A program made the position numbers and the translations under genes. Below the pieces are notes generated by a model that saw nothing but the letters and a program-made list of their open reading frames with translations, was not told where the DNA came from and did not search any database. Positions 4,108 through 62,113 of a stretch of DNA of 64,000 bases are shown here, piece by piece; the stretch's first letter is position 1; each line of letters opens with the position of its first letter. This stretch comes from Actinomycetota bacterium (GTDB lineage: Bacteria; Actinomycetota; Actinomycetes; Actinomycetales; Microbacteriaceae): the NCBI GenBank assembly GCA_947449765.1, contig CANFSP010000002.1, forward strand, positions 62,001 to 126,000, written 5' to 3'.

Positions 4108-4143
4108 GATGCTTCCTCCTCTGGAGCGTCGGATTGTGCTGAG

Positions 4144-5643: not shown

Positions 5644-5655
5644 TTCTACTCCGTG

Positions 5656-6309
5656 CTAGTTTCGACCGGCTAAGAACGCATCGAGCGTGCTGAGTCGGTG
5701 GTTTCGGGCCGCCAGTTCCACCTCGATGGGACTGGCGTGGGATTCAATGAGATCGAGAAGTCGGTCATGCTCGTCGACGGATTCCCGCGCGCGACCGGGC
5801 ACGTAGATGAAGGCCGACTCGCGAATCGTGGCCAGGCGGTTCCACCCCCGGTGTACCAGGTCGAGGATGTGCAGGTTCGGGCAGTGTTCGAAAATGACGG
5901 CATGGAACTCGTGATTGAGCTCGGTAAACCTCGTGGGATTAAAGTCATCAAGGCACTCGCGCATCTCGCGGTTGATTTTTCGCGCCAGAGCGATGTCACC
6001 GGGAGTCACGTTGGGCGCGGCCATCGCGGTAGCCATCCCTTCGACGAGACTCAGGGTTTCCATTGTGAACTGATACTCCCGTGCATCCGTTGCGACGACC
6101 TGAGCGCCGACATTCGTGGTGAACGTGACAAGCCCCTCGGCTTCGAGTCGGCGAATTGCCTCGCGAACCGGAACCACCGAAACGTCAAGTTCTTTGGCAA
6201 TCGTGCCCAAGACGAGACGAAATCCCGGGCCATACTGTCCGTCGGTGATTTTGTCTTTAATGAGCTGGTACGCGCGTTCGGATTTGCTCAGGGTTGAGGT
6301 GTTGGTCAT
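5656..6309 (-). CDS. GntR-family (FCD) transcriptional regulator
   Basis: This 217-residue DNA-binding protein has an N-terminal winged helix (residues about 10-75, including VSVVPVREAIRRLEAEGLV) and a C-terminal all-helical FCD ligand domain. The FCD domain contains the usual metal-binding Asp/His residues in the NHEFHAVIFEHC and DEHDRLLDLIE contexts. I chose the ATG at 6309 over the one 18 bases upstream, because 6309 forms an ATGA overlap with the stop of the preceding FAH-RraA gene. It is embedded in the homoprotocatechuate operon, so autoregulation by a ring-cleavage intermediate is likely but not shown. The palindrome at 7805-7818 is a possible site. Confidence 0.88.
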   Translation of the reverse strand: MTNTSTLSKSERAYQLIKDKITDGQYGPGFRLVLGTIAKELDVSVVPVREAIRRLEAEGLVTFTTNVGAQVVATDAREYQFTMETLSLVEGMATAMAAPNVTPGDIALARKINREMRECLDDFNPTRFTELNHEFHAVIFEHCPNLHILDLVHRGWNRLATIRESAFIYVPGRARESVDEHDRLLDLIESHASPIEVELAARNHRLSTLDAFLAGRN

Positions 6310-7772
6310 GACCTGGCCGCCTTCCACGCCTCAAATTTTTCGCGCCACGCCTTGTTCAGGGGAAAAACGTCCTTGACCGGCTCGCCACCTGCGACGACCT
6401 CGGCGATGAACTCTTCCTCGAGCTCCTGCGCGATGCAGTCGTTTACGAGTTCGTCAACGAGGTGAGGGGGAATGACCAAAATGCCGTCGGAGTCGGCGAC
6501 AATCACGTCGCCGGGCTGAACCGCGCAACCGCCGCAGGTGATGGTGAGATCGTTGTCCCACGGTACGTGGCGACGGCCTAACACAGCCGGATGTCCACCC
6601 GAGTGATAAGCCGGAACGCCGATCTCGGTGACGACGGCAAGGTCACGGATGCCACCATCGGTAATCAGCGCCGCGGCTCCGAGGTGTTTTGCGCGCAAGG
6701 CTAAAACATCCCCAAGCGTGCCTGACTCGGTTTCGCCACGTGCCTCAATCACGACGACATCGTCGGGCTGAAGCGAATCGAAGAGGCGTTTCTGTGCGTT
6801 GTATCCGCCGCCGTGTGACTCAAACAGGTCTTCTCTGTTGGCGATGTAGCGAAGCGTCCGAGCCCGTCCGACAACCTTGCTTGCTGGGTGAGTCGGCACG
6901 AGTCCGTCAATGCTCACATTGTTGAACCCACGCTTGCGAAGCTGCTGGCTGAGGGTGGCGGTGGCCACGCTGTGGAGCTTTGCTTTGAGTTCGTCCGTCA
7001 ATTCGAAGAGGGGCGGCAAGCCGGCCTCGGCGCGCGAACCCCACGCCTCCTCGCGCTGCAGGTCGTCCACCTTGGGACCAGCGCTGAACGCGGGCATCGG
7101 GTGGATGCCTTCGGTCACCGTGGTGACGAGGCGACCCGTGCTCGGTGCTCCCGGAGCGGTGGGCGCATCCACTTCCACTTCAACGACGTCTCCGGGCAGA
7201 ACAACGGATGATCCGGCTGGTGTTCCGGTGAGAATCATGTCGCCCGGCTCAAGCGTCATCAATTGCGACAGGTCGGCGACGAGGGTGCCGAGCGAGAAGG
7301 CGAGCTTTTCGGTGGTGTCGTCCTGCTTGAGAACGCCGTTGACCCAGGTGCGTACGCGCAGAGCGCCGGAATCGAGACCGGTGGCGTCGATGACATTCGG
7401 CCCGACGGGAGTGAATCCATCGCCGCCTTTGTTTCGCAGGTTGCTTCCCTTATCGACGTAACGCAGGTCGTAGACACCGAAGTCGTTTGCGGCCGTGATT
7501 GCTGACACGGCGGCCCAGCCGAGAGTGGCGTCGTCAACATGCCGCACATGTGCCCCGATGATGAGGGCGATTTCACCTTCAAAGGCGAGAAGCTCGGTGC
7601 CTGCGGGGCGCTCGATGGTGCCACCCGTGTAAGCCATTGAACTTTGCGGCTTCAGAAAGAATGAGGGATAGGCAGGACGACGCCCGCGCTGAGCGATCCG
7701 CGACTCATAGTTGAGGTGCAGAGCAATGATTTTGCCCGGTCGATACGCGGGGTCAATCGGTGTGACGGTCAT
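6306..7772 (-). CDS. FAH-domain isomerase/decarboxylase fused to an RraA/aldolase domain
   Basis: This is a 488-residue two-domain protein. Residues about 1-230 form a fumarylacetoacetate-hydrolase/HpaG-type domain with the metal-binding Glu65-x-Glu67 pair, Asp97 in AANDFGVYD, and the late GDMILTGTPAG signature. Residues about 255-488 form an RraA/HMG-aldolase-type domain. It has the complete D-X20-R-D motif (Asp355, Arg376-Asp377), the arrangement of metal-dependent pyruvate aldolases and decarboxylases rather than RNase E regulators. In classical homoprotocatechuate degradation HpaG decarboxylates and isomerises the C7/C8 acid. Here one half of the usual tandem-FAH HpaG seems replaced by RraA. 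The RraA half could be the decarboxylase or stand in for the missing HpaI aldolase. GAGGAG precedes the ATG, and the stop overlaps the GntR start. Confidence 0.88.
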   Translation of the reverse strand: MTVTPIDPAYRPGKIIALHLNYESRIAQRGRRPAYPSFFLKPQSSMAYTGGTIERPAGTELLAFEGEIALIIGAHVRHVDDATLGWAAVSAITAANDFGVYDLRYVDKGSNLRNKGGDGFTPVGPNVIDATGLDSGALRVRTWVNGVLKQDDTTEKLAFSLGTLVADLSQLMTLEPGDMILTGTPAGSSVVLPGDVVEVEVDAPTAPGAPSTGRLVTTVTEGIHPMPAFSAGPKVDDLQREEAWGSRAEAGLPPLFELTDELKAKLHSVATATLSQQLRKRGFNNVSIDGLVPTHPASKVVGRARTLRYIANREDLFESHGGGYNAQKRLFDSLQPDDVVVIEARGETESGTLGDVLALRAKHLGAAALITDGGIRDLAVVTEIGVPAYHSGGHPAVLGRRHVPWDNDLTITCGGCAVQPGDVIVADSDGILVIPPHLVDELVNDCIAQELEEEFIAEVVAGGEPVKDVFPLNKAWREKFEAWKAARS

Positions 7773-15429: not shown

Positions 15430-16698
15430 ATGACACAGAAATCTGATGACGGGTCATCGTCGGCCCCGGAGATTAAAGAACTTGAACAGATTGGTCGGCG
15501 GTCCGACACCCGAGACGTTCTCAACCACGCAACCCATCAAGCGATTGCTCAGTATGAGGACTACTTTATCGTCGACATTGACGCACACGTCTCAGAAGAT
15601 CAGTTCTGGGGTGAAGTACTCGAACTGATTGACAATGACGTCTGGAAGCACATTGGTCTCGATCAATTCGGCTCCTTTGGCGGCGGCAATGCCCTCCTCA
15701 ATCTCGCTCCCGGACTCTCGCAGCAAAGTGTTGGCGGTCGAATCGGACACCAGGGTCGACGCGAGCCGGTTGAGGGAGTAGCGGGTCACCCATTTGTGAC
15801 CGCGGCCCGACGAGGCATGGACGCACTCGGTCTCGACTATCAGGTGGTCTTCCCGAGCGCCATGTTGGTTCTGGGAATGCACCCGCAAGATGAGGTTGAA
15901 GTGGTCCTCGCTCGCGCGTTCAACCGCTGGCTGACTGAAGTCGTTCTTCCTCAGGATGATCGACTCAAGGGTCTGCTCTACCTTCCTTTCAACACCCCCG
16001 AGGTCTGTGAAGAGCTCGTCGAAAAGTACAAAGATGACGACAACATCATCGGATTTACCGTGTGTTCCACGCGAAACAACCCGGTCCACTCCGATGTGTA
16101 CAGCAAGCTCTATTCCATGATTGAGGCGACGGATAAGCCCTTGGCGTTTCACTCGGGATATCACTGGGGTGACCCCTCATTTGCTCAGCTGAATCGCTTC
16201 CTCTCAATGCACGCCCTGTCGTTTACCCACTACAACCAAATCCACGTCACAAACTGGATCATCAACGCCATGCCCGAACGGTTCCCCAAAATCAAAATGC
16301 TGTGGGTCGAAAGTGGTTTGGCCTGGATTCCGTTCCTCGCGCAGCGCCTCGATCACGAGGTGCTCATGCGCCCCAGTGAGGCACCGGGGCTGACCAAGTT
16401 GCCCAGTGAGTACATGCGTGAGATGTGGTACACGACCCAGCCCATGGAGCGCACGGACCTCGGCATGCTGGAAGCCACGATGAAATTTTTCAATGCGGAA
16501 ACCCAGCTCCTCTATTCATCGGATTGGCCGCACTGGGACTGGGACGCCCCGTCAACGATTAGCAACCTTCCCTTTCTTTCGGAGCAGGCAAAGCGAAACA
16601 TTCTCGGACTCAACGCTGCCAAGCTCTTCAATTTGGATGCCACGCGCAAACGTCCACCAGCTCAGCAGACTCTCGATGAGCGGCCGGGGGTTTCGTGA
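15430..16698 (+). CDS. Amidohydrolase-2 family metal-dependent hydrolase/decarboxylase
   Basis: This 422-residue TIM-barrel protein belongs to the amidohydrolase_2/ACMSD-like branch. Visible landmarks are a DAHVSEDQF start of the barrel (Asp-x-His), His in LAFHSGYHWG, and the late SSDWPHWDWD motif with the conserved Asp and His. Members of the branch decarboxylate or hydrolyse aromatic-ring-derived acids. The protein is about 80 residues longer than typical ACMSD, with an N-terminal extension before the first motif. Its stop overlaps the next start (TGATG), so it is coupled to a 101-residue protein and then a Rieske protein. The pairing with a Rieske partner is unusual. Substrate unknown. Confidence 0.85.
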   Translation: MTQKSDDGSSSAPEIKELEQIGRRSDTRDVLNHATHQAIAQYEDYFIVDIDAHVSEDQFWGEVLELIDNDVWKHIGLDQFGSFGGGNALLNLAPGLSQQSVGGRIGHQGRREPVEGVAGHPFVTAARRGMDALGLDYQVVFPSAMLVLGMHPQDEVEVVLARAFNRWLTEVVLPQDDRLKGLLYLPFNTPEVCEELVEKYKDDDNIIGFTVCSTRNNPVHSDVYSKLYSMIEATDKPLAFHSGYHWGDPSFAQLNRFLSMHALSFTHYNQIHVTNWIINAMPERFPKIKMLWVESGLAWIPFLAQRLDHEVLMRPSEAPGLTKLPSEYMREMWYTTQPMERTDLGMLEATMKFFNAETQLLYSSDWPHWDWDAPSTISNLPFLSEQAKRNILGLNAAKLFNLDATRKRPPAQQTLDERPGVS

Positions 16699-17000
16699 TG
16701 GGCGACGCGTCTACCCCTGAAGTGCAGGCATACAACGACCTCGTGCGTCAGCTGTCTGAGGCAGCTACAAAAATCATTGACTCCGGTCAGGCTGCTCTCA
16801 TCAGCGACGAAGCCCTGGTCGAACCCTTGTACGTCGCAGCCCGCATGTTTTCATCCAAAACGGATCGCGTCGGCAAGACCGAATGGCCGATCGCGACAGA
16901 TGCGCTCAACGCGACGGAGACCGTCGTCCTGGTCACCGCATTGCTCGAGGCCGCCGACGTCAACCTTTTCGACATGGCCATTTGGTACAGGAGGCTCTAG
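16698..17000 (+). CDS. Small orphan protein between amidohydrolase and Rieske
   Basis: I do not recognise this 100-residue protein. It is helical and acidic, without Cys, signal peptide or membrane span. Notable stretches are the EVQAYNDLVRQLSEAATKII helix and the C-terminal ALNATETVVLVTALLEAADV helix, ending in an aromatic WYRRL tail. Its ATG at 16698 overlaps the amidohydrolase stop (TGATG); a GTG one codon earlier is an alternative. Its TAG overlaps the GTG of the Rieske gene by one base. Such tight coupling suggests a stable complex with both neighbours, perhaps as a subunit or docking protein. Confidence 0.75.
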   Translation: MGDASTPEVQAYNDLVRQLSEAATKIIDSGQAALISDEALVEPLYVAARMFSSKTDRVGKTEWPIATDALNATETVVLVTALLEAADVNLFDMAIWYRRL

Positions 17001-17389
17001 TGGCAGCTCAAAACATCAAACCACTGCGGGATGTAGTCATCGGCAAGTATGACCAGCTTCGCACCAGAGAGCGAGTGGTTCTCGATATCGATGGCAAAGA
17101 AGTTGGCGTCTACTTTGAAGGCGATGAGGTTCGCGCCTGGCTCAATGTGTGTCCCCACGGGGGCGGGCCGGTCTGCCAGGGAAAAATCATGCCTCGCACC
17201 GTTCACAATTTTTTGCCAGGAGGCAAAAGTGGAGGTCTGGGCCATCACGAGTCGGAACGCAACATTGTGTGCCCATGGCACGGCTATGAATTCGGCATCC
17301 TCTCTGGCGAACATCCGATCAAGTCTGACGTGAAGCTCATCGCGGTTCCGGTGCGCATCTCAGACGGGGATGTCATCCTCTCGGTGTAG
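17000..17389 (+). CDS. Rieske [2Fe-2S] protein with long inter-motif insertion
   Basis: This 129-residue soluble iron-sulfur protein has a Rieske cluster with ligands Cys51-x-His53 (NVCPHGGG) and Cys91-x-x-His94 (VCPWHGYEF). Between His53 and Cys91 there are 37 residues, roughly twice the usual 15-17. The insertion contains Gly/Pro-rich and HH residues (about 71-90). The GTG start at 17000 is set by AGGAGG 5 bases upstream and by the one-base overlap (TAGTG) with the small protein. No oxygenase alpha subunit or reductase is found nearby, so it is not an obvious ring-hydroxylating ferredoxin. It could shuttle electrons to, or form a subunit of, the coupled amidohydrolase. Confidence 0.88.
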   Translation: MAAQNIKPLRDVVIGKYDQLRTRERVVLDIDGKEVGVYFEGDEVRAWLNVCPHGGGPVCQGKIMPRTVHNFLPGGKSGGLGHHESERNIVCPWHGYEFGILSGEHPIKSDVKLIAVPVRISDGDVILSV

Positions 17390-17402
17390 ACCTGCTTAAT
17401 GA

Positions 17403-17441
17403 GCCGGAGCCCCCTCGCGAGTGAGGGGGCTCCGGCTTTTT
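17403..17441 (+). terminator. Strong intrinsic terminator
   Basis: A perfect 14-base GC-rich stem (GCCGGAGCCCCCTC / GAGGGGGCTCCGGC) with a 6-base loop is followed directly by TTTTT. It lies 14 bases after the Rieske stop and closes the amidohydrolase-Rieske operon. The reverse direction lacks a T-run. Confidence 0.92.
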
Positions 17442-17453
17442 ACGCGCACGATG

Positions 17454-18887
17454 CTAATGAGAGACGGGAGCACCCTGCAACGACTTGAGTTCGAAGTATT
17501 CTTCGAGACCGTAACGACCGTACTCACGACCAAGACCAGACTGACCGTAGCCGCCGAATGGTGCCTGTAGGTTGAGCGGTTCGCCATTGATGACGACCTG
17601 TCCGGTGCGCAGCTGTCGAGCCATGGCTACAGCACGCTCACCACTCGAGGACCACACTCCGCCGGACAGCCCGTACGAGGCTGAGTTGGCCTGAGCCACC
17701 GCATCAGCTTCGTCGTCATACGGCATGATGGCCAACACCGGACCGAAGATTTCTTCTTGCGCGATGGTCATGGTTGGCGTGACATCACTGAACACGGTCG
17801 GCTCAACGTAGGCACCCACCGAGCGCGGTGGGGTGGTCCCACCGACGAGCAGTCGTGCACCTTCATCGATGCCCTTTTGGATGTAGCCGAGCACGCTCTT
17901 TTGCTGCGCAGGTGAGGCCATGGGGCCAACCTTCGTGTCGAGGTCTTCTGGGTCACCAACGGTCCACCCGGCAACCGCCTCCACCACAAGTTTTTCAACT
18001 TCAGCAAGTTTGGAGCGCGGCACGAGCAGACGCGACAAGGCGGCACACGCTTGTCCGTTGTTGGCGTAGCACTGTTTCACTGCGGTAGGAATGGCCTTCG
18101 CGAAATCTGCGTCGTCAAGGATCACGTTGGCGCTCTTACCACCAAGTTCGAGGGTGACCTTTTTGAGCGAGGCAGCTGCGCTGGCGGCAATCTTTTTGCC
18201 AGCGTTTGTTGAACCGGTGAAACTGACCATGTCGACCCCCGGATGGGTCACGATGGCTTCACCCACCGAAGCAGCATCACCGCTGACCAGGTTGAAGACA
18301 CCAGCGGGGAGGCCTGCTTTCTCAAACATTTCAGCGAGCACATAGGCGTTGAGAGGAGACACCTTGCTCGGCTTCAGCACGACGGTGCATCCCGCAACAA
18401 TTGCCGGAGCCACCTTGGCTGAAATTTGGTGGAGCGGGAAATTCCACGGTGTGATTGCACCGACGACCCCAATGGGATCGCGCACCACGAGACTTGAGCC
18501 CATCATTTCTTCACCCTCGGCGAGAATCTCTTCCATCGCGCGAGCGGCGAAGTCAAAGTTCTTAATGGCCAGGCTGACTTGCGCCATGCGCGCAAAGGCT
18601 CGTGGGGAACCCATTTCGTCACTGATGAGATCGGCGATTTCATCGTTGCGCTCCTTGAGCTGATCTCGAACACTGTCGAGAATGGCGATGCGCTTCTGTG
18701 GGTCCGTAGCGGCCCACGAGGGAAATGCTTTTCGAGCCGCGGCGACGGCGACGTCGACGTCGGCGGCATTGCCGGCGGCAATCGTGCCGACTAGCTCGTT
18801 GGTTGCCGGACTGCGAACTTCAATCACACCGGTTCCCTGTGACGGAATCCATGTGCCATCGACGTAGATGTGCAGGCGTTCAATCAT
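17454..18887 (-). CDS. NAD(P)-dependent aldehyde dehydrogenase
   Basis: This 477-residue ALDH-superfamily enzyme has TPWNFP at 146-151, general-base Glu247 in LELGGK and nucleophile Cys281 in NNGQACAAL. The NGQAC wording is typical of broad betaine/aromatic-type aldehyde dehydrogenases. It follows the ThDP-dependent decarboxylase-like gene by 15 bases on the same strand. That suggests the two act in sequence: a 2-oxo acid is decarboxylated and the resulting aldehyde is oxidised, as in the mandelate pathway (benzoylformate, benzaldehyde, benzoate). That is inference from order and family. The substrate is not readable from sequence. Confidence 0.9.
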   Translation of the reverse strand: MIERLHIYVDGTWIPSQGTGVIEVRSPATNELVGTIAAGNAADVDVAVAAARKAFPSWAATDPQKRIAILDSVRDQLKERNDEIADLISDEMGSPRAFARMAQVSLAIKNFDFAARAMEEILAEGEEMMGSSLVVRDPIGVVGAITPWNFPLHQISAKVAPAIVAGCTVVLKPSKVSPLNAYVLAEMFEKAGLPAGVFNLVSGDAASVGEAIVTHPGVDMVSFTGSTNAGKKIAASAAASLKKVTLELGGKSANVILDDADFAKAIPTAVKQCYANNGQACAALSRLLVPRSKLAEVEKLVVEAVAGWTVGDPEDLDTKVGPMASPAQQKSVLGYIQKGIDEGARLLVGGTTPPRSVGAYVEPTVFSDVTPTMTIAQEEIFGPVLAIMPYDDEADAVAQANSASYGLSGGVWSSSGERAVAMARQLRTGQVVINGEPLNLQAPFGGYGQSGLGREYGRYGLEEYFELKSLQGAPVSH

Positions 18888-18902
18888 GGGTGTTTACTCC
18901 TT

Positions 18903-20531
18903 TTAGCGAGGTGGCTGGGGAAGGAAATCGTGGATGAGGTGCCACGCACTCGGAAGTTCCGGAACGGGCACTTCAAGCAGCAGCGGCTCATTCGCCTTCT
19001 CAGCATTTTTGATTGCCGAGAGGAGAGCGTCGGGGCTAGCAATGCGTTCGCTCGCGATCCCAAACGCTTCACCGAGCTTGACGAAATCTGGGTTGGCCAG
19101 GTCGGTTGCGAGCATGCGGTTGAAGCGGTTCTTCTGCATGCGTCGCACGTTGCCGAACGCGTTGTCCGAAAAGACCACGGTAATCAGCCCAATGTTGTAC
19201 TTGCGAGCTGTTGAGAGTTCCTGCATGTTCCAGCCGAAGCCGCCATCCCCGTTGATTGAGACGGTGACCCGATCAGGATTGCCGGCTTTGGCGCCGAGCG
19301 CAGTGGCAAAGCCGTAACCCAAGGTGCCCTGGTAGCCGGGGGTGATGTACGTGTTGGGGCCGTAGACCGGGAAACCCACTTCGCTGAGGTAACCAACCTG
19401 AGTGAGTTCATTGACGAGGATGCCGTCTTCAGGGATGGCCTCGCGGAGTGCGCGTACCCAGCTGGCCTGCGGCATGACCGCATCCACTTGAGCCTGTGCA
19501 TCCGCCCGAATCTCGTCGAGCGTGACGAGGATGCCGGATCGCTCGTTGGCAGACAAGGCGTCGCGCAAGGCGCTGAGACCGAGTCGCGCGTCCGAGTGAA
19601 TCGCTACGTCGGCGCGACGTGGCGCGCCCAAATCGCGCTCCTCCGTGTTGAGGAAAATGAGTTTGGTGCGTGGGTCGGTCTTGATCACATGAGCGTGACC
19701 ATCGAGGAAACGACTGCCGACAACCAGGATGACGTCTGCTTCAGGGATGAGGCGACGACCACCCAAACTCGTGACGGCGAGCGGGTGGCGGTTGTCGAGG
19801 GCGCCTCGTCCGTGCAGGCTCATCACCACCGGAACATTGATGTGTTCGGCAAGTGCGCGAAGCTCGTCGCTAGCCTTGCCGGCGAGCACTCCGCCACCGA
19901 CGTAGACGAGGGGGCGCTCAGCTGCGGCCAACAAGGCCGCTGCTTCACTGATGCGCTTGGGGTCTGGTTCGACCACGTCACGACTGAAGTCGGCGTCGAT
20001 GAGTGTTACGTCAGCCCGGGATTCGAGAACGTCCGGTGGGATTTCAATGCCTACTGGGGCAGGGCGACCGCTACGCAACTGGTGCATCGCATCGTGCACG
20101 AGTTGGGGAATCTCTGCGGGGGTAAGGGCCATGCCCGTCCACTTCGTGACCGTGCCCAGGGTGTGTGTCTGATCGTTGACCTCGTGCAGTGCTCCGAGAC
20201 CTTTTCCGATGTGCTCCGACGGTACCTGACCCACAATGGCGAGGACCGGAGAAGAGCAGGCATACGCTGTCGACAGCGCCGCGGTGGCGTTCAGCATTCC
20301 GGGGCCGGGAACAATCATGCAGACGCCGGGTTCACCTGTGGTGCGAGCGTAGCCGTCCGCCATGTAGGCCGCACCCTGTTCGTGGCGGGTGTTCCAGAAC
20401 GTCAAGTCATCTTGTACTTGAGCGAGTCCATCAACCGCAAAGTCCAGCTGAACGCCGGGCACGCCAAACATCTGAGTGATGCCTTCCCGAACAAGCTGTT
20501 GAGCCAGCGCTTCACCGCCAGAAAGCTCCAT
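18903..20531 (-). CDS. Thiamine-diphosphate-dependent enzyme (benzoylformate decarboxylase/acetolactate synthase-like)
   Basis: This 542-residue ThDP enzyme has the activating Glu51 in TRHEQGAAYMADGYAR. The PP-Mg binding motif GDG...N is at about residues 427-455, within INGDGGFGWNMQE and FSDNAFGN. The three-domain order (PYR, central, PP) is complete. Family members decarboxylate or carboligate 2-oxo acids; benzoylformate-decarboxylase-like action is suggested by the downstream aldehyde dehydrogenase. The start ATG is preceded by a weak AAAGG. The AT-rich promoter candidate lies about 40 bases upstream. A second ThDP enzyme of the same family occurs at 50266-51870, so substrate division is likely. 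Confidence 0.88.
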   Translation of the reverse strand: MELSGGEALAQQLVREGITQMFGVPGVQLDFAVDGLAQVQDDLTFWNTRHEQGAAYMADGYARTTGEPGVCMIVPGPGMLNATAALSTAYACSSPVLAIVGQVPSEHIGKGLGALHEVNDQTHTLGTVTKWTGMALTPAEIPQLVHDAMHQLRSGRPAPVGIEIPPDVLESRADVTLIDADFSRDVVEPDPKRISEAAALLAAAERPLVYVGGGVLAGKASDELRALAEHINVPVVMSLHGRGALDNRHPLAVTSLGGRRLIPEADVILVVGSRFLDGHAHVIKTDPRTKLIFLNTEERDLGAPRRADVAIHSDARLGLSALRDALSANERSGILVTLDEIRADAQAQVDAVMPQASWVRALREAIPEDGILVNELTQVGYLSEVGFPVYGPNTYITPGYQGTLGYGFATALGAKAGNPDRVTVSINGDGGFGWNMQELSTARKYNIGLITVVFSDNAFGNVRRMQKNRFNRMLATDLANPDFVKLGEAFGIASERIASPDALLSAIKNAEKANEPLLLEVPVPELPSAWHLIHDFLPQPPR

Positions 20532-20627: not shown

Positions 20628-21803
20628 TCACCACAAACCCGCGAGATGCGCGATGCGCAGGCCGGTGTGCAGTTCCCGTCGCACAACTCCGTCAGAGAGA
20701 TCCAATCCGGTGACTTCGCGAATTTTGTCGAGACGGTAGTAGAAGGTGCTTCGGTGAATGTGCAAGTCTTTTGCGGTCGCCTGCGCATCCCCGCCGAAAT
20801 CAAGATACGCATTGAGGGTGTGAGCCAAATCGATTCCGGACTGGTTCTCGAGTAGCTTGGCCACGCCCTCGGGCAGGTCACTCACCGAAAGGGACGCGAG
20901 AGGAAGTTGGAGCAAGAGCCGATCGAGTCCGAGGTCTGACCAGTCGGCTAAAAATCGCATCGATGATGTGTCACGGATGAGTGAATCGATGGCGATGTGG
21001 GATTCGCGTAACGATGAATCCAGCTCTGCAAGGTCAGATGTGGCGCCGCCAAGGCCGCCGACCACCACTCCCAACGTCAGGTTCTTGAGCGCTGTCACTA
21101 TTTTGTGAGAGTCAAGCGGCCCGGCGATCACGAGTGTTCCGGTGGATTGTTGCGCCACGCCGAACGAGTGAAACGGTGTGGCCCGAATGACCGCTCGCGT
21201 CGCTTCTTCCGTCTCAAGTGCGAGCATGGCCAGGTCTCTGCCGGCCGCGTTCACGGGCTGCAAACTGAGGACGCGGTATTCGCTCATTTCGGGGAGGAGG
21301 CGAAAAGCCTTGACCGATTCAGCCCCACGAGTGCGCTCAGCCGCTTGCGACGAAAGCAAGTCGCTCATCACGGACTGGCGAAAGTCGACTTCGTCCTCGT
21401 CGGCAATCGTTCTGACGGCAACGAGCGGGGCGAGCTGAGTTGCGGCGTTGGTGAGGTCACCCATGAACTCGGGACTGATGTCACCGATGTGTTCTGCGCC
21501 CGGTTGCGAAAACGTGAGAAAACCGTAGAGGCGACCCTTGTACCGCAGTGGCACAACAACGCGAGCAGGGACATCATCGTGAGCGGCCAGTAAGACGGGT
21601 GACTCGGAGGTTCGCACCTTCGACGCGGCAATCATTTCAGCCGCTTGAGGAGTGGCTTTTCGTCCCAAGATGACGGCAAGACGACCACGATCGACGGTTT
21701 CATCATGCTCGCTGAAGGTGAGAACGCGGAGGTCGAGGTCAAAAATGACGATTGCCCGGTCGAGAGATTCGGCGGTCAGTTGAACGGCTTCGTGCAGGTT
21801 CAT
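20628..21803 (-). CDS. PucR/CdaR-family transcriptional regulator
   Basis: This 391-residue activator-type regulator has a C-terminal PucR helix-turn-helix (TLNAYLDFGGDAQATAKDLH, then HRSTFYYRLDKIREVTGLDL). The N-terminal half looks like a GAF-type sensory domain, with VVPLRYKGRLYGFLTFSQPG. The start at 21803 (MNLHEAVQLTAE) has GGAGG 8 bases ahead; the frame is open 105 bases further, but that extension overlaps the divergent gene. It lies between two catabolic units and is divergent from the aldehyde dehydrogenase at 21950. It therefore probably controls that gene, the ThDP-ALDH pair, or both. PucR-family proteins commonly respond to pathway substrates; the ligand here is unknown. Confidence 0.87.
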   Translation of the reverse strand: MNLHEAVQLTAESLDRAIVIFDLDLRVLTFSEHDETVDRGRLAVILGRKATPQAAEMIAASKVRTSESPVLLAAHDDVPARVVVPLRYKGRLYGFLTFSQPGAEHIGDISPEFMGDLTNAATQLAPLVAVRTIADEDEVDFRQSVMSDLLSSQAAERTRGAESVKAFRLLPEMSEYRVLSLQPVNAAGRDLAMLALETEEATRAVIRATPFHSFGVAQQSTGTLVIAGPLDSHKIVTALKNLTLGVVVGGLGGATSDLAELDSSLRESHIAIDSLIRDTSSMRFLADWSDLGLDRLLLQLPLASLSVSDLPEGVAKLLENQSGIDLAHTLNAYLDFGGDAQATAKDLHIHRSTFYYRLDKIREVTGLDLSDGVVRRELHTGLRIAHLAGLW

Positions 21804-21949: not shown

Positions 21950-23395
21950 GTGTCAGAAAAATGGAAAAGTGCCGACGTTGACGGGATGTTGTTCTCCGAC
22001 GGTTGGCGGTCGGGAAACGGCGGTAGCTATGAGATTCTTTCTCCGATCGACGGACACAGTGTCGGAACGGTCGCGCTAGCTAACGAAAAAGATGTTCAGC
22101 GTGCCGGAGAGCTAGCCACCGCCGCTCAAATTGCCTGGGGACAGACGAGTTTCAGCGAACGTGGCGACCTGATGCTCCGCGCAGCCGACGCCCTCGAAGA
22201 CATGCGGGATGAGGTCCTTCGTCTCTTGGCGGTGGAAAGTGGGTCGGGGACAGTCAAGGCAAACAGTGAAATCGATAAGGCTCTTGACGAATTGCGAACC
22301 GCCGCAGCTCTGCCATCGGCACCCCAGGGTGAGGTTCTGGCACACGACAAAAATTTTGCATTGAGTATCGCTCGGCGCGTTCCGGTTGGAGTAGTGGGCG
22401 TGATCGCACCGTGGAACGCGCCTCTCATGCTCGCCATCAGATCGGTTGCACCGGCCATTGCCCTCGGGAATGCCGTCATCCTCAAGCCCGATGTGAAAAC
22501 GTCTTTTTCTGGGGGGCACGTCATTGCCGCGGCATTTGAACGAGCCGGCCTCCCTGCCAATGTCTTGCACGTGCTGCCCGGAGGTCCAGAAACCGGCGAG
22601 GCGTTGGTCAGGTCACCGCACACTCAGATGATTTCGTTCACCGGATCCACCGCAGCGGGACGCCGTGTCGGGGAAGTTGCCGGTGGACTGATGAAGCGCG
22701 TCGTCCTGGAATTGGGTGGCAAGAACGCCATCATCGTGTTCGAGGATGCCGATCTCGACCGGGCCGTCGACGCCGCAGCAAAGAGCTCCTTTGGTCATCA
22801 GGGGCAAATTTGCATGGCAACGGGACGCCACTTAGTGCACGAAAAAATCGCGGACGAGTACATGGCTAAACTCATCGCCCGCGTCGATTCGATGCGTATG
22901 GGTGATCCTCGTGAGAAGGGCGTGAATGTTGGTCCTCTGATCAGTGAGCAACAGGCTGAACGTGTTCAGGCCATCGTGGACGCATCGGTCAGTGACGGCG
23001 CAACCATCGTGCGCGGTGGTACTCACGATGGCGTGTATTTCACACCGACCATCCTCGACGGCGTGGACGTGAACAACCCCGCGTTCCAAGCCGAAATTTT
23101 TGGTCCCGTTGCTCCGATCACCCGATTTGCCTCTGATGACGAAGCCATTCAGCTCGCCCAGGCGACGACCTATGGGCTGTCGGCCGCCATTCACACTCGT
23201 GACGTGGCTCGTGCACTCGAGATGGCCGGCAAACTCCGCACGGGAATGGTTCACATCAATGGAACCACGGTGAACGACAATGCTCAGGTGCCCATGGGAG
23301 GTATGGGTGACTCCGGTAACGGCGGCAGGTATGGCGGGCACTGGAGTGTTGACGAATTCACGTACTGGCAGTGGGTGTCAGTTGCGCCCGCCTGA
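21950..23395 (+). CDS. Benzaldehyde/vanillin dehydrogenase-like aldehyde dehydrogenase
   Basis: This 481-residue ALDH has APWNAP at 153-158, Glu254 in LELGGK and Cys288 in HQGQICMATGR. The HQGQICM context and the HINGTTVNDNAQVPMGG stretch near the C-terminus are features I associate with benzaldehyde, vanillin and salicylaldehyde dehydrogenases. It would oxidise aldehydes released by the hydroxycinnamoyl-CoA hydratase-lyase encoded at 37.8-38.6 kb. I prefer the GTG at 21950 (GAGG 6 bases upstream) to the ATG at 21899, which would overlap the divergent regulator promoter and add untypical residues. It is transcribed alone, divergent from the PucR regulator. Confidence 0.88.
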   Translation: MSEKWKSADVDGMLFSDGWRSGNGGSYEILSPIDGHSVGTVALANEKDVQRAGELATAAQIAWGQTSFSERGDLMLRAADALEDMRDEVLRLLAVESGSGTVKANSEIDKALDELRTAAALPSAPQGEVLAHDKNFALSIARRVPVGVVGVIAPWNAPLMLAIRSVAPAIALGNAVILKPDVKTSFSGGHVIAAAFERAGLPANVLHVLPGGPETGEALVRSPHTQMISFTGSTAAGRRVGEVAGGLMKRVVLELGGKNAIIVFEDADLDRAVDAAAKSSFGHQGQICMATGRHLVHEKIADEYMAKLIARVDSMRMGDPREKGVNVGPLISEQQAERVQAIVDASVSDGATIVRGGTHDGVYFTPTILDGVDVNNPAFQAEIFGPVAPITRFASDDEAIQLAQATTYGLSAAIHTRDVARALEMAGKLRTGMVHINGTTVNDNAQVPMGGMGDSGNGGRYGGHWSVDEFTYWQWVSVAPA

Positions 23396-23578: not shown

Positions 23579-24583
23579 ATGATTATTGATGTTCACGGAC
23601 ACATGTCAGCACCGTCCGACTTTTACGCGTGGAAAGCCGGCTTGCTGGCTCACCGCGGATCACACGGAGGTAAGCCACCGGTGATCACGGATGACGCTCT
23701 TCGCGCATCGTACTTCGCCCCAAATCACAACTTTGGGGACATTTCCCACATGCAGCACCTTGACGATGCGGGAATTGATTTGCAGCTCATTTCTCCGCGG
23801 CCGTATCAGATGATGCACTCGGAGCGACCTGCCAAATTGGTTGAGTGGTTCACCGCTGAAGCAAACAACCTCATCCACCGGGCTACGGAACTCTTCCCGG
23901 GACGGTTCAAAGGCATTGCCGGTCTCCCACAGAGCCCCGATCTTGAGCCAGCTCAATGGTTAGGCGAACTTCGCCGCACCGTCACCGAGATGGGCTTTGT
24001 TGGCGTGATGCTCAACTCAGACCCGTTCGAGGGGACTCAGACTCCGCCGGCACTCGGTGAACGGTACTGGTATCCGGTCTACGAGGCGCTGTGTGAACTC
24101 GATGTTCCGGTTCTCTTGCACTCGGCCGGATGTAAACCACCAGCACGCGAGCCGTACAGCTTGCACTTCATTCAAGAAGAAACCGTGTCGGTGTGGAGCC
24201 TGGTCAACTCCGATGTTCTGAAGGATTTCCCCGACCTCAAGGTCATCGTCTCTCACGGTGGCGGAGCAATTCCATACCAGGTAGGACGCTTCCTTCCCTC
24301 GGTCGTGCGAACCGGTGTCTCGTACATTGACAAGCTCCGCAAGCTCTACTTTGACTCGTGCCTCTACACCCAAGAAGGGCTCGAGCTGCTGTTCAAAGTT
24401 GTGGGTACCGACCGAGTGCTCTTCGGCTCCGAGAAGCCCGGTACGGGTTCCCAGATCGATCCGTCGAACGGTCGCTGGTTTGACGACATCCACTTGCTCA
24501 TTGATGACATCGAGTGGCTGCCCGCGGACGAGCGCGAGGCCGTGATGAACGGTAACGCCAAGAAGATTTTCCGAAACCTCTAG
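23579..24583 (+). CDS. ligJ: LigJ-like 4-oxalomesaconate hydratase (amidohydrolase family)
   Basis: This 334-residue amidohydrolase-2 protein resembles Sphingomonas LigJ as remembered. The shared parts are IIDVHGHMSAP at the N-terminus, a GFVGVMLNSDP stretch, LKVIVSHGGGAIPYQVGRF, YFDSCLYTQEGLELL, and RVLFGSEKPGTGSQIDP with a GNAKKIF ending. LigJ hydrates 4-oxalomesaconate to 4-carboxy-4-hydroxy-2-oxoadipate in protocatechuate/gallate 4,5-cleavage. The immediate neighbours are RraA-family proteins, one of which is LigK-like and would cleave that product. The start at 23579 (AAGGGAG upstream) is preferred to one 57 bases earlier. Other ACMSD-like activities cannot be excluded. Confidence 0.82.
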   Translation: MIIDVHGHMSAPSDFYAWKAGLLAHRGSHGGKPPVITDDALRASYFAPNHNFGDISHMQHLDDAGIDLQLISPRPYQMMHSERPAKLVEWFTAEANNLIHRATELFPGRFKGIAGLPQSPDLEPAQWLGELRRTVTEMGFVGVMLNSDPFEGTQTPPALGERYWYPVYEALCELDVPVLLHSAGCKPPAREPYSLHFIQEETVSVWSLVNSDVLKDFPDLKVIVSHGGGAIPYQVGRFLPSVVRTGVSYIDKLRKLYFDSCLYTQEGLELLFKVVGTDRVLFGSEKPGTGSQIDPSNGRWFDDIHLLIDDIEWLPADEREAVMNGNAKKIFRNL

Positions 24584-24614: not shown

Positions 24615-25298
24615 ATGAGTGAAACTACGACGTCACCCAACGAACGCGCCGAAATCATTGCGGCCCTGCGTCAACTGGACTCGTGCGCCGTTTCTGACGC
24701 GCTCGACTCGTATGGATTACCCGGAGCTGTTACGGCACTCCAGGCAATGTGGCCCGTTGGTAAAGTGGTCGCCGGTCGGGTGAGAACGGTAACCGCTGCC
24801 CCCAAGAGCGCAGGAGGACCATCCACGCATATTGCGACGCCCCTCGTTGTGATTTCTGAAGAGGATGACGTTGTCGTCATTGACAATCACGGTCGAGTCG
24901 ATGTCTCATGCTGGGGAGGGCTCCTCGCCGAAGCTGCCGTCAAGCAGGGCATCGCGGGTGTGATCGTCGACGGTGCCTGCCGCGACGTCCAGGAGTGCGA
25001 AGCACTCGAGCTTCCTCTCTATGCTCGACGCGCCGTGCCTGTGAGCGCACGGGGACGAATCGTTCAGCAAGCCATGGACACCCCGATTCAGGTTGATGGT
25101 GTGGCCGTTGCGTCGTTCGATTACGTCATTGCGGATCGCAACGGAATCGCCTTCATCGGGCAGGCCGAGGCCAAGCGGGTCGTCGAATTCGCCAAGCGAA
25201 TCACCGAGCGCGAGGAGCGTATGTCACTCGAGGTGCGTAGCGGTCGACCGGTGGTCGAAGTCATGCACGACAACCAGTTTCCAACAGTGGAGAAGTAA
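24615..25298 (+). CDS. RraA-family protein 1 (aldolase motif incomplete)
   Basis: This 227-residue RraA/HMG-aldolase-fold protein has Arg123-Asp124 (GACRDVQE), but the position 21 residues before Arg is Gly102 (CWGGLLAEA) rather than Asp or Glu. It therefore lacks the D-X20-R-D signature of active metal-dependent aldolases. An extended C-terminus (REERMSLEVRSGRPVVEVM) is present. It begins 31 bases after the LigJ-like gene, and its TAA directly abuts the ATG of the next paralogue. It may be a non-catalytic partner in mixed trimers or have a distinct activity. Known RraA relatives include aldolases, oxaloacetate decarboxylases and RNase E regulators. Confidence 0.85.
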   Translation: MSETTTSPNERAEIIAALRQLDSCAVSDALDSYGLPGAVTALQAMWPVGKVVAGRVRTVTAAPKSAGGPSTHIATPLVVISEEDDVVVIDNHGRVDVSCWGGLLAEAAVKQGIAGVIVDGACRDVQECEALELPLYARRAVPVSARGRIVQQAMDTPIQVDGVAVASFDYVIADRNGIAFIGQAEAKRVVEFAKRITEREERMSLEVRSGRPVVEVMHDNQFPTVEK

Positions 25299-25952
25299 AT
25301 GAGCACGATTGAAGAACGCTTCAGCGTCTTGGGCACCGCGACCATTTCCGATGCCCTCGACAAGATCAAACGTCCGGGCAGCATGCACGGATTGGCACCT
25401 CTACAAAATGGCCAGCAGATGGCGGGGCGCGCCTTTACCGTGAGGTATGTCGCGGCTGGCAACCCTCCGGGAACCGTGGGAGATTTCATCGATGACGTGA
25501 AACCCGGTCAGGTTGTGGTCATCGATAATGACAGTCGAACGGACTGCACGGTCTGGGGCGACATTCTCACGGCAACCGCGCACAACCGGGGCATTGCTGG
25601 AACGGTCATCGAAGGCGTGTGTCGCGACACAATCCGCGCACTCAGCCTTGGCTACTCGATCTACAGCCGTGGACGTTTCATGCGCACCGGCAAGGATCGA
25701 GTCGAGGTGGCCGAAGTCGAGGGTCCCGTGACCATCGGTGGCGTCAAGGTTCTTCCCGGCGACATCATCGTGGGCGACTCGGATGGTGTCGTTGCCATCC
25801 CGCAGGACTGCGAGCAGGAAGTGCTGGAGATCGCCGAGATGATCGAAGAACGGGAGGAGAGCATCCTTCAGGCCGTTCTCGCTGGATCAACCATCGCTGA
25901 GGCACGCGCAAAATTTGGTTACCACCTGCTCCAGCGGGGGGAGAACTCATGA
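25299..25952 (+). CDS. RraA-family protein 2 (complete D-X20-R-D motif)
   Basis: This 217-residue RraA-fold protein has Asp88 (VWGDILTA), Arg109 and Asp110 (GVCRDTIRA), which form the full D-X20-R-D motif of class II pyruvate aldolases and decarboxylases. The GDIIVGDSDGVVAIP stretch is the usual C-terminal signature. Its ATG immediately follows the stop of paralogue 1 without a gap, and its stop overlaps the ATG of paralogue 3 by 4 bases. Stoichiometric coproduction of all three seems intended. The activity could be oxaloacetate decarboxylation (oxaloacetate arises from the LigK reaction) or another pyruvate-releasing cleavage. Confidence 0.86.
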   Translation: MSTIEERFSVLGTATISDALDKIKRPGSMHGLAPLQNGQQMAGRAFTVRYVAAGNPPGTVGDFIDDVKPGQVVVIDNDSRTDCTVWGDILTATAHNRGIAGTVIEGVCRDTIRALSLGYSIYSRGRFMRTGKDRVEVAEVEGPVTIGGVKVLPGDIIVGDSDGVVAIPQDCEQEVLEIAEMIEEREESILQAVLAGSTIAEARAKFGYHLLQRGENS

Positions 25953-26584
25953 CCGAGAACTTTGATGAGAACGAACTCCTTACTCTGGGTACGGCGACAC
26001 TTTACGAGGCATCAGGGCTCGATTGCTTTCTTGACCCGTCGATTCGACCGGCATGGGATGGTGCCGCCGTCGTAGGACGCGCGTTTCCCGTGCTCGCCGC
26101 CATCGGCGACAATCTCGCGCTGCATCACGGTATCGAAGCCGCGGGTCCGGGCGATGTTCTCGTGGTTGATGCGGGTGCGGGTCTGCATGGCTACTGGGGT
26201 GAAGTGATGACCGTCGCCGCCCTCGCGCGAGGAATCAAGGGTCTAGTTATCGATGGTGGCGTGCGCGACACCGTACAGATGGCTAACTTGAGCTTTCCCG
26301 CATTCAGCTCGAGCATCTCAATCCGCGGCACGATAAAAAAGTGGCCGGGAACTGTTGGTCTCCCCATCACGATGCGTGGACGGGTGATTAATCGGGGCGA
26401 TCTCATCGTTGCCGACCGTGACGGTGTCGCTGTTCTACCGGCTAACTCGCTGGAGAGCATCATTGCGTCGTCCCGCGAGCGTGCCCTCAAAGAAGAGGCC
26501 TACATGAAGAGGCTGGCCGCCGGGGAAACCACTCTTGACGTTTACAACTTTCGCGATCTTGGATCCCCTGAATCCGCTCGTTAA
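25949..26584 (+). CDS. ligK: LigK-like 4-carboxy-4-hydroxy-2-oxoadipate aldolase (RraA family 3)
   Basis: This 211-residue protein is the closest of the three to characterised HMG/CHA aldolases. It has the SSISIRGTIKKWPGTVG loop, GDLIVADRDGVAVLP, and the C-terminal RLAAGETTLDVYNFRDL, which parallels the LAAGVLGLDMY ending of known enzymes. The metal motif reads Glu85-X20-Arg106-Asp107 (YWGEVMT, GGVRDTVQ). The expected reaction is cleavage of 4-carboxy-4-hydroxy-2-oxoadipate to pyruvate and oxaloacetate, directly after LigJ. It overlaps the preceding gene by 4 bases. With the LigJ-like protein it gives the lower protocatechuate 4,5-cleavage route. No LigC or LigI is recognised in the window. 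Confidence 0.82.
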   Translation: MTENFDENELLTLGTATLYEASGLDCFLDPSIRPAWDGAAVVGRAFPVLAAIGDNLALHHGIEAAGPGDVLVVDAGAGLHGYWGEVMTVAALARGIKGLVIDGGVRDTVQMANLSFPAFSSSISIRGTIKKWPGTVGLPITMRGRVINRGDLIVADRDGVAVLPANSLESIIASSRERALKEEAYMKRLAAGETTLDVYNFRDLGSPESAR

Positions 26585-26615: not shown

Positions 26616-28256
26616 ATGTCGAAAATTATTGAAACCGATGTCGTCATCGTAGGCGGCGGCCCGGTCGGGCTCACCGCAGCGATGTATTTGAACTCCCGAG
26701 GAGTGCGCAGCGTCGTTATCGAATCACGCGCGTTTATGGCTGCCCCGAATGTCAAGTGCAATCACGTTTCGGCGCGCACCATGGAGCGCTTTCGCCAGCT
26801 CGGCATCGCCGACAAGGTGCGGGCAGCCGGTCTCCCTCAGGATTATCCGCATGACGTCGCTTTTTTTACGACGATGACCGGAATCGAAATCGCACGAATC
26901 TTGATTCCCTCGCCGGCTGATCGCAAAAACAACCCGGTTGGGCCTGACGCCGACTGGCCGACTCCCGAGCCACCTCACCGCGTGAATCAGCGCTACCTCG
27001 AACCGATTCTCATGGAGCACGCTGCGTCGCTCGAGAACCTCACACTTCTCAACGACACCGACTTCGTCGATTTCACCCAGGATGATGACGGCGTTGCCGT
27101 TCGCGCCACGGATAAGAATGGAGAACCCCTCGAAATCCGCGGCAAGTTCATGATTGGCGCAGACGGAGGAAAGTCGGCGGTTCGTAAGATGATTGGCTCG
27201 AGCCTCTCCGGTGACCCAGTCTTGAGCTACGTGCAATCCACGTTGATCAGCGCCCCCGGTTTGTATGAGCTCGCGGGAGACCCCGCCTGGGCCTACTACC
27301 TCTTGAACCCACGACGTAATGGTCACATCTACTCAATCGACGGTAAAGAAGAGTTCCTGGTGCACAACTACGTCAAGCCGGATGAGGGCGAGGGCGAGAA
27401 CCTTGACCGCGATCAATTCATTCGCACGTTCCTCAATGTTGACGACTCCTTCCAGTACACGATTTTGTCTAAGGAAGACTGGGTAGCTCGCCGGCTCGTT
27501 GCTGATCGTTTCCGAAAGGGGCGTGTCTTCATCGCGGGAGACGCATCCCACCTCTGGGTACCCTACGCCGGTTATGGCATGAACGCAGGTATCGCCGACG
27601 GCCTGAGTCTTGCGTGGGTGCTCTCCGCGTATCTCAACGGTTGGGCAAGTGAGGGAATCCTGGATGCGTACGAGCTCGAGCGTCAACCCATCACGGAGCA
27701 GGTTTCACGATTCGCGATGGGTCACCAAAAAAAGATTGCCGCCTTCGATGTACCCGACAATATTGAGGAAGACTCGCCCCCGGGTGAAGAGGCGCGTCGG
27801 GTCTTAGGGCAGAAGGCCTACGACCTCAACGTGCAGCAGTTCGCGGCCGCTGGTCTGAACTTCGGCTATTCGTACTCCGGGTCAAACATCATCAGTTACG
27901 ACGGGGAGGAAGCCCCCGCGTACACCATGGGCTCGTTTACGGCATCGACTGTTCCCGGTTGCCGCATCCCGCACTTTTGGGTATCGGATGGAGTTTCGTT
28001 GTATGACCAACTCGGTTTGGGGTACACGCTGATCAGCCGGACAGATTCAGCCGCAACTCAGCCCTTTGTGGAGGGGTTCGCGGCGGCGTCGGTGCCCCTG
28101 ACCGTGCTCACATTCTCACCGGATCAGACGCCCGCCGAGTACACGCATAACTTCTATCTCGTTCGCGATGACCAGCATGTGGTCTGGCGCGGAGACGCTG
28201 CACCCTCGGATTTCGCCGGTCTCTGTGATGTTTTGACGGGACGAGTACCGGCCTAA
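26616..28256 (+). CDS. FAD-dependent aromatic hydroxylase (PheA/TfdB family)
   Basis: This 546-residue flavoprotein monooxygenase has the ADP-binding GGGPVGLTA loop, the DG-like MIGADGGKSAVRKM motif in the middle, and a second FAD contact, GRVFIAGDASHLWVPYAGYGMNAG. The C-terminal thioredoxin-like domain of the phenol-hydroxylase group appears to be present. Such enzymes add a ring hydroxyl using NAD(P)H and O2. It sits 31 bases after the LigK-like gene, so it probably generates the diol for the extradiol cleavage that feeds LigJ/LigK. The substrate (hydroxybenzoate, resorcylate, hydroxyphenylpropionate) is open. Two further flavin hydroxylases occur at 45.9-47.1 and 62.2-64 kb. Confidence 0.88.
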   Translation: MSKIIETDVVIVGGGPVGLTAAMYLNSRGVRSVVIESRAFMAAPNVKCNHVSARTMERFRQLGIADKVRAAGLPQDYPHDVAFFTTMTGIEIARILIPSPADRKNNPVGPDADWPTPEPPHRVNQRYLEPILMEHAASLENLTLLNDTDFVDFTQDDDGVAVRATDKNGEPLEIRGKFMIGADGGKSAVRKMIGSSLSGDPVLSYVQSTLISAPGLYELAGDPAWAYYLLNPRRNGHIYSIDGKEEFLVHNYVKPDEGEGENLDRDQFIRTFLNVDDSFQYTILSKEDWVARRLVADRFRKGRVFIAGDASHLWVPYAGYGMNAGIADGLSLAWVLSAYLNGWASEGILDAYELERQPITEQVSRFAMGHQKKIAAFDVPDNIEEDSPPGEEARRVLGQKAYDLNVQQFAAAGLNFGYSYSGSNIISYDGEEAPAYTMGSFTASTVPGCRIPHFWVSDGVSLYDQLGLGYTLISRTDSAATQPFVEGFAAASVPLTVLTFSPDQTPAEYTHNFYLVRDDQHVVWRGDAAPSDFAGLCDVLTGRVPA

Positions 28257-61102: not shown

Positions 61103-62113
61103 ATGGCACGCATTGAACTCGGTATCGCCTCGTCACATGCGCCACAGCTCGCAACACCTCCCGAAGAGTGGGGTCAACGGGCCGTTGCGGATAGAAAAAA
61201 TCAGGCGCTGATCTACCAGGGCAAGCAGTACAACTTCGACGAGCTCAACGCACTTCGCGGGGCCGCTTTTGCCGGCGAGATCACGCCGGAGGTGTGGGCG
61301 GAACGCTATGCCCGTGCTCGCGCAGGTATCGAAAAATTGGGAAAGATTGTTCGCGACGCAAACATTGACGTTTTGGTCATTGTGAGTAGCGACCACAAAG
61401 AGACTTTTGATGACCAGGTGCTCTCACCATTCGTCATCTACTGGGGTAAGGAAGTCGCTCACGTACCGTTCACCGAGGAAGCAATCGCGTCGTTCGCGCC
61501 GGGACTTGCGATTGCCGAGGTAAAAAACGTTCCCGAGGTGGCGACCACGCGGGTAACGGATGGAGAACTCGCGCAGCACCTCATCCAGGGAATCCAAGAC
61601 GAAGGCTTTGACCCGTCAGCGTCGAAACAACTTCCCGCCGGCCGATACGGCGATTTCGGAATCCCTCACGGCTGGGGCTACATCATCCAGCAGGTGCTCG
61701 GTGGTGTGGACATCCCTCCGATTGTTCCGATTTTCGTCAACACCTTCTGGCACCCGAACCCTCCGACGGCGAAACGCAGCTATGACTTTGGCCTCGCCCT
61801 TGGCAAGGCGCTACAGAGCTACCCCAAAGACATCCGCGTGGGGCTCGTTGCCTCTGGTGGTCTCTCACACTTTGTGATCGACGAAGAAATGGATCACGAG
61901 TTCCTCACCGCACTGGTCGAGAAGGACGCGAAAACCATCACCAAGTACGACAACGACGTGCTTCGCTCGGGTACCTCTGAGCTTCGGAACTGGATGGTCA
62001 TCGCTGGCGCGCTCGCTGCTACGAAGCTCCAGGCCGAGGTGATCGATTACATTCCGGCATACCGTTCCGAAGCGGGAACCGGTGCCGGACTGGGATTTGT
62101 TGCCTGGAAATAG
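61103..62113 (+). CDS. LigB-type class III extradiol ring-cleavage dioxygenase
   Basis: This 336-residue non-heme iron dioxygenase cleaves catecholic rings in the meta position. Likely ligands are His12 (ASSHAPQL), His98 (VSSDHKET) and Glu293 (GTSELRNW). The acid-base His is His189 (GIPHGWGY) or His256 (SGGLSHF). The general pattern lies between LigB, gallate dioxygenase and MhpB. No LigA-like small alpha subunit is encoded next to it, so a single-component enzyme is possible. A flavin phenol hydroxylase follows 75 bases downstream. Its product could enter the LigJ/LigK branch if the substrate is protocatechuate or gallate; other catechols are equally possible. Confidence 0.88.
   Translation: MARIELGIASSHAPQLATPPEEWGQRAVADRKNQALIYQGKQYNFDELNALRGAAFAGEITPEVWAERYARARAGIEKLGKIVRDANIDVLVIVSSDHKETFDDQVLSPFVIYWGKEVAHVPFTEEAIASFAPGLAIAEVKNVPEVATTRVTDGELAQHLIQGIQDEGFDPSASKQLPAGRYGDFGIPHGWGYIIQQVLGGVDIPPIVPIFVNTFWHPNPPTAKRSYDFGLALGKALQSYPKDIRVGLVASGGLSHFVIDEEMDHEFLTALVEKDAKTITKYDNDVLRSGTSELRNWMVIAGALAATKLQAEVIDYIPAYRSEAGTGAGLGFVAWK

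Follow-up and report, generated by a model that had tools for sequence, protein, structure and literature searches.

A conserved three-gene unit encoding a putative amidohydrolase-related dinuclear oxygenase, a small Rieske protein and a new third component in an actinobacterial genome

The three genes at 15430-17389 (+) of the window (the whole stretch of 64,000 nucleotides that was analysed) encode an amidohydrolase-type protein, an orphan protein and a small Rieske protein. With a probability of about 85%, they are read here as a multicomponent O2-dependent monooxygenase, in which the amidohydrolase-type product would be the hydroxylase, the Rieske protein its electron donor and the orphan an accessory subunit, and which in the close clade would carry out the oxygenation of an aromatic acid. 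Family, metal ligands, linkage and co-occurrence are taken from the sequences, and from there we infer the activity, metal content, electron path, role of the orphan and substrate.

The type of enzyme has been known since 2021-2024. The amidohydrolase-related dinuclear oxygenases (AROs), named in PMC10811679 and found there via an adjoining small Rieske gene, form a recently recognised class of monooxygenases, Mn/Fe or diiron, for which very few substrates have been assigned. New with respect to the open-licence literature searched are the present branch and its third component. Thus, the statement of a preceding sequence-only reading that the trio matches no pathway has been answered for two of the three genes, since AROs paired with Rieske proteins have been described before (PMC7782822, PMC10401708, PMC10811679), and it holds for the orphan.

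Organisation of the three-gene unit

Inspection of the open reading frames confirmed the trio and its order (Table 1). The TGATG and TAGTG overlaps through which the sequence-only reading had linked the genes are both present: the orphan starts at the ATG inside TGATG at 16698, overlapping the ARO gene (or else at the GTG at 16695), and the Rieske gene starts at the GTG inside TAGTG at 17000, preceded by AGGAGG at 16989-16994. The strong terminator said to close the unit was recovered by folding, the stretch of 65 nt with the hairpin (about 17401-17440) giving -41.9 kcal/mol and z = -6.65. Moreover, the trio, with the same overlaps or near-overlaps, was found again at 32 other close loci and is therefore beyond chance; as judged from this recurrence, the three genes are a real conserved functional unit.

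Table 1. Features of the unit and of the associated catabolic genes, in window coordinates
Feature	Coordinates	Strand	Basis
Putative catalytic subunit, PF04909, 422 aa, ARO type	15430..16698	+	Pfam, profile alignment, Foldseek
Orphan small helical protein, 100 aa, proposed accessory/coupling subunit	16698..17000	+	Co-occurrence; without family or fold match
Small Rieske [2Fe-2S] protein, 129 aa, proposed electron donor	17000..17389	+	Motif, Pfam, alignment
Predicted intrinsic terminator closing the unit, 16-bp hairpin then T run	~17401..17440	+	Folding
Aldehyde dehydrogenase, convergent	17454..18887	-	Homologues in the same cluster: L007, Herbiconiux L060
ThDP-dependent decarboxylase-like enzyme	18903..20531	-	PRK08266 subfamily, over cut-off
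Regulator, PucR-type by inspection	20628..21803	-	Relatives in many trio clusters
Second aldehyde dehydrogenase	21950..23395	+	Associated
LigY-like amidohydrolase	23579..24583	+	Closest to LigY meta-cleavage hydrolase, next 4-oxalomesaconate hydratase
RraA-family protein 1	24615..25298	+	Associated module
RraA-family protein 2	25299..25952	+	Associated module
RraA-family protein 3, 4-carboxy-4-hydroxy-2-oxoadipate (CHA) aldolase type	25949..26584	+	PRK09262, 182.2 bits, cut-off 179
FAD-dependent aromatic hydroxylase-like enzyme	26616..28256	+	PRK06126 subfamily, over cut-off
LigB-type extradiol dioxygenase	61103..62113	+	Adjoins LigY-like gene in relatives; here ~36 kb away

The amidohydrolase-type product and its Rieske partner

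The amidohydrolase-type product matched PF04909 with 68.3 bits (cut-off 26.4). In the profile alignment, its predicted metal ligands D51, H53, H241, E294, D365 and H368 and the predicted second-sphere acid D370 fall on D25, H27, H211, E265, D337, H340 and D342 of AibH2, the roles of which were taken from PMC7782822; an acid at the D342 position is typical of dinuclear members. All seven residues were kept in 37/37 ARO rows of the tree set, and the LigY-like neighbour, used as non-redox outgroup, reads HHHHERF at these positions, i.e. without the dinuclear ligand set. The best solved relatives by sequence were 8SM7, 8SM6 (SfbO), AibH1H2 and others; decarboxylases appeared among the weaker sequence and profile matches, and PtmU3 was related by profile, more weakly than other AROs. 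The predicted structure is of moderate confidence (pLDDT 77, pTM 0.81, residues 82-114 below 50), and with it Foldseek placed AROs at all ranks from 1 to 20 (target-normalised TM 0.78-0.83), decarboxylases coming only afterwards.

As in the published criterion for AROs, a small Rieske gene lies within three genes of the ARO gene. A Rieske gene was likewise found beside the ARO in all 38 loci chosen by the ARO alone (the 32 close ones and L039-L044), and a 90% co-occurrence of AROs with Rieske genes has been described (PMC10401708). On the basis of the complete ligand set, the ARO-first ranking by sequence and structure and the Rieske neighbour, the product is most likely the oxygenase itself, with the six AibH2 ligands kept, and not the amidohydrolase assisted by a Rieske cluster that had been suggested; together with its Rieske protein it most likely belongs with the AROs described in 2021-2024. 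The opposite reading, in which the product is a common hydrolase or decarboxylase of PF04909 (like ACMSD, LigY or gamma-resorcylate decarboxylase) and the Rieske protein serves an unrelated oxygenase, would be in line with the mostly non-redox character of the family and the weaker decarboxylase matches, but is very improbable in view of the dinuclear ligands that the LigY-like neighbour lacks, the AROs at the head of both rankings and a Rieske gene that constantly adjoins the ARO with no Rieske oxygenase gene beside it. An ordinary hydrolase next to a stray Rieske gene was rejected on ligands, structure ranking and linkage.

The Rieske product carries the cluster motifs C51-P-H53 and C91-P-W-H94, with 37 residues between them. 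The gap, from which the protein had been called atypical, is real and would be out of the ordinary in a common Rieske ferredoxin. Among Rieske proteins beside AROs it is normal, spanning 36-40 residues in all 22 ARO-linked sequences aligned, which were drawn from actinobacterial, alphaproteobacterial and Chloroflexi-type ARO loci. In the same 22 proteins the first motif has the form CPHxxGPxCxG, and its extra Cys is invariant and common to both ARO branches. As far as this alignment extends, the long gap and the extra Cys are a family signature and not an anomaly of the present gene. In the window the extra residue is C59 (17174-17176), eight residues past the first cluster Cys, and it is also found in the Rieske genes of L007-L044. 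A Rieske ring-hydroxylating oxygenase was considered and discarded, the product having only 129 aa and the unit being without an alpha subunit.

No reductase gene and no Rieske oxygenase alpha subunit occur in or beside the trio, as the sequence-only reading had observed. In the whole genome (1.97 Mb, 98.6% complete), NAD_binding_1 gave only one sub-threshold match and none over the family cut-off, and the only clear candidate is a single BphA4-type reductase on another contig, unlinked to the trio. One of the other Rieske matches of the genome lies beside genes that by inspection resemble a Suf operon. Near a divergent trio (L073, 44% for the ARO), inspection of 15568-19148 revealed ferredoxin-, BphA4-type reductase- and Rieske dioxygenase subunit-like genes, a possible linked electron source.

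The orphan protein and its branch of probable oxygenases

The 100-residue protein, described earlier as an unrecognised subunit, matched nothing in Pfam, NCBIfam or the PDB sequences. Its model, with four predicted helices (pLDDT 85), retrieved no fold from the PDB (best E 7), and no known accessory or effector subunit family of these databases was matched by sequence or fold. The residues invariant in the close set are mainly hydrophobic, Asp/Asn, Trp and Arg, with no conserved Cys/His metal motif, and in the wide set only T74 and W97 are invariant. The C-terminal stretch D88-R100 of the orphan is conserved.

The conserved three-gene neighbourhoods, the search for which had been proposed as a check, were found, so that the refuting condition named first in the sequence-only reading, a trio not kept together in other genomes, does not apply. 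Orphan and Rieske genes were present in 32/32 close loci picked by the ARO only, with ARO-orphan spacings of -4 to +2; apart from five exceptions, the orphan and Rieske genes overlap by 1 or 4 nt. Within one genus (247 genomes), the orphan profile matched 12 genomes, the very ones that carry an ARO of this branch (called at E <= 1e-100), and 0/235 others, an association with Fisher p ~1e-20, uncorrected for kinship. Furthermore, 24 orphan sites were found irrespective of their neighbours in 385 alphaproteobacterial genomes: 24/24 adjoin a Rieske gene, and the ARO lies inside the fetched locus of about 3.3 kb in 23/24 and 6 kb away in the remaining one. Four gene orders were seen (ARO-orphan-Rieske, Rieske-orphan-ARO, ARO-Rieske-orphan and Rieske-ARO-orphan), so that the co-occurrence survives rearrangement; the last two rule out an orphan gene fixed between its partners. 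At the distant ARO loci L039-L044 (21-26% identity) the Rieske gene is present and the orphan absent, and other AROs (AibH2, SfbO, Chloroflexi types) do without an orphan. Two loci (L108 9765-12300 and L112 7706-10900) hold a tandem pair of ARO-type genes together with a single orphan and a single Rieske gene, which recalls the AibH1/AibH2 pair.

In the phylogenetic tree, the orphan-bearing AROs form one clade (support 99/99, branch 1.83), opposite a clade (98/97) of AibH2, SfbO, 8SM7, 8SM8, 8SM9 and the orphan-less Chloroflexi-type AROs. The PDB rows of this tree were aligned segments from the profile alignment, PtmU3 was left out and one non-redox outgroup was included. The split of orphan-bearing from other AROs is well supported in these sequences, and the tree supports the orphan-bearing ones as an uncharacterised sister branch to all the structurally characterised AROs in it, with a root that is unsure because the sole outgroup is a long branch.

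Within the sampled genomes, the orphan is thus a new third component, undescribed in the open-licence literature searched and always present in its branch. Most likely it serves as a subunit for coupling or docking. In the main rival reading it would be no subunit of the working enzyme but would load or mature the dinuclear (Mn/Fe) centre, as a metallochaperone or an assembly factor. Strict co-occurrence with the ARO branch would be in line with this as well; the reading is nevertheless unlikely, since a Cys/His metal motif is not conserved and the overlaps of 1 and 4 nt with both partner genes suggest stoichiometric production.

Catabolic context, proposed mechanism and known systems

In the close clade the trio recurs with a catabolic cluster: LigY-like and LigB genes, three RraA genes, an FAD hydroxylase-like gene, aldehyde dehydrogenases, a ThDP enzyme and a PucR-type regulator. 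LigY is the closest solved relative of the 23579 product, and a LigY-like gene, 76-82% identical, was present in 12/12 actinobacterial trio genomes tested; in the genus of 247 genomes it occurred in 11/12 trio genomes as against 3/235 others. The order in one locus (L072) is Rieske-orphan-ARO-LigY-like-LigB. This tie to the LigB/LigY-like/RraA module points to an upstream oxygenation, suggesting such a role in aromatic-acid catabolism for the trio of the closest relatives. Two inspected clusters (L074, L075) carry LigY-like, LigB and RraA genes without the trio, which suggests the trio as entry step, and they are useful for defining its contribution. The LigB/LigY-like module was absent from the distant alphaproteobacterial trios examined; the pathway assignment is thus limited to the close clade, and the trio looks like an oxygenase cassette serving several pathways.

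Several further features of the window are of note. The three different RraA genes in tandem (24615-26584), kept together in module-bearing trio clusters, perhaps encode a heteromeric hydratase/aldolase. The region 2950-7772 (-) encodes HpaD (3,4-dihydroxyphenylacetate 2,3-dioxygenase, over the NCBIfam cut-off), an aldehyde dehydrogenase, a GntR-type regulator and a protein resembling a fumarylacetoacetate-hydrolase/RraA fusion. Homologues of this set adjoin the trio in L027 and lie near it in L045. An FAD monooxygenase at 45909-47111 (-), with 265 bits to a tetracycline destructase subfamily model (cut-off 550), is probably a catabolic hydroxylase. The genome has only 1.97 Mb, and most of 2950-64000 resembles an island of genes for the catabolism of aromatic compounds.

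As regards the substrate, the trio might O-demethylate or hydroxylate an aromatic acid of the biaryl or ring-substituted kind and so supply a route resembling that of 5,5'-dehydrodivanillate (LigX-LigZ-LigY). The LigXYZ system of Sphingobium SYK-6 has LigY-like, LigB-type and CHA-aldolase-type RraA proteins as the trio clusters do, with LigY nearest to the 23579 product, and the clusters devoid of the trio would make it the entry step. LigX itself is a Rieske-type O-demethylase, not an ARO. This reading has a low probability, as the aminotransferase and ThDP decarboxylase-like genes of many clusters indicate an amino-acid or 2-oxoacid side chain and not a lignin dimer. Such a side chain would suit an amino-acid-derived aryl-2-oxoacid or arylacetate, handled in an Ehrlich-type sequence of aminotransferase, ThDP decarboxylase and aldehyde dehydrogenase followed by ring oxygenation. 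The three enzyme types recur beside the trio, and homoprotocatechuate genes are near in L027, L045 and this window; transporter types, however, vary between lineages, and this substrate class is possible but doubtful. A riboflavin/lumichrome pathway (PMC12746152), which likewise combines a TPP decarboxylase and an extradiol dioxygenase with a Rieske system, was rejected, a two-component Rieske dioxygenase taking the place of the ARO there. A bityrosine-like biaryl is speculation, and nothing on it was found in the literature searched.

In the mechanism proposed for the ARO monooxygenase, a TIM-barrel hydroxylase would hold a dinuclear centre, Fe/Fe or Mn/Fe, like those of AibH2 and SfbO. Electrons would pass from NAD(P)H, via a reductase encoded in trans, to the Rieske [2Fe-2S] protein, which would hand them over singly to the dinuclear centre. 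O2 would be activated there and an O atom inserted into a C-H bond of the aromatic-acid substrate, in a hydroxylation or an oxidative dealkylation; SfbO dealkylates a surrogate substrate (PMC10811679). The orphan would most likely bind the hydroxylase and/or the Rieske protein and thereby couple the transfer of electrons to the oxygenation of the substrate. The LigB-type dioxygenase, the LigY-like hydrolase and the RraA-type aldolases would complete the degradation of the product in this genome and its closest relatives.

Among known systems, AibH1H2-AibG-AibF, the 2-aminoisobutyrate monooxygenase of Rhodococcus wratislaviensis (PMC7782822, PMC10401708), shares the seven residues, PF04909 and a small Rieske gene in the same operon. 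However, it has two amidohydrolase subunits and a reductase gene of its own (AibF), whereas the trio has one PF04909 gene, without a counterpart of the mononuclear AibH1, no reductase and an extra 100-residue protein; moreover, AibH2 falls in the sister clade. SfbO, 8SM7, 8SM8 and 8SM9 (PMC10811679) are the closest solved structures by sequence and fold, alike in Rieske neighbour and dinuclear-site residues, but all belong to the other branch, and the main text of PMC10811679 mentions no accessory protein. PtmU3, a diiron monooxygenase of platensimycin biosynthesis, uses the PF04909 fold for O2-dependent hydroxylation, as proposed for the trio ARO, and differs in its weaker profile match and biosynthetic context.

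The orphan-bearing branch therefore combines an extra component, reported for no structurally characterised ARO of the tree, with a place in a conserved catabolic cluster, which narrows the range of likely substrates, and the trio offers a genetic handle on the electron route to ARO centres and on the need for an effector protein. An analogy can be drawn with T4MO and sMMO, which join a dinuclear hydroxylase to a small effector protein and, in T4MO, a Rieske ferredoxin. Their effector proteins have about 100 residues. The hydroxylases of T4MO and sMMO are nevertheless four-helix bundles, unrelated to the TIM barrel of the trio, and no PDB fold matched the orphan. Tentatively, and at somewhat less than even odds, the orphan may be the first member of a family of coupling subunits on which TIM-barrel dinuclear oxygenases obligately depend, parallel in function to the effectors of the methane- and toluene-type monooxygenases and unrelated to them in origin, and the trio may define a second major ARO branch with a chemistry of its own in aromatic-acid catabolism.
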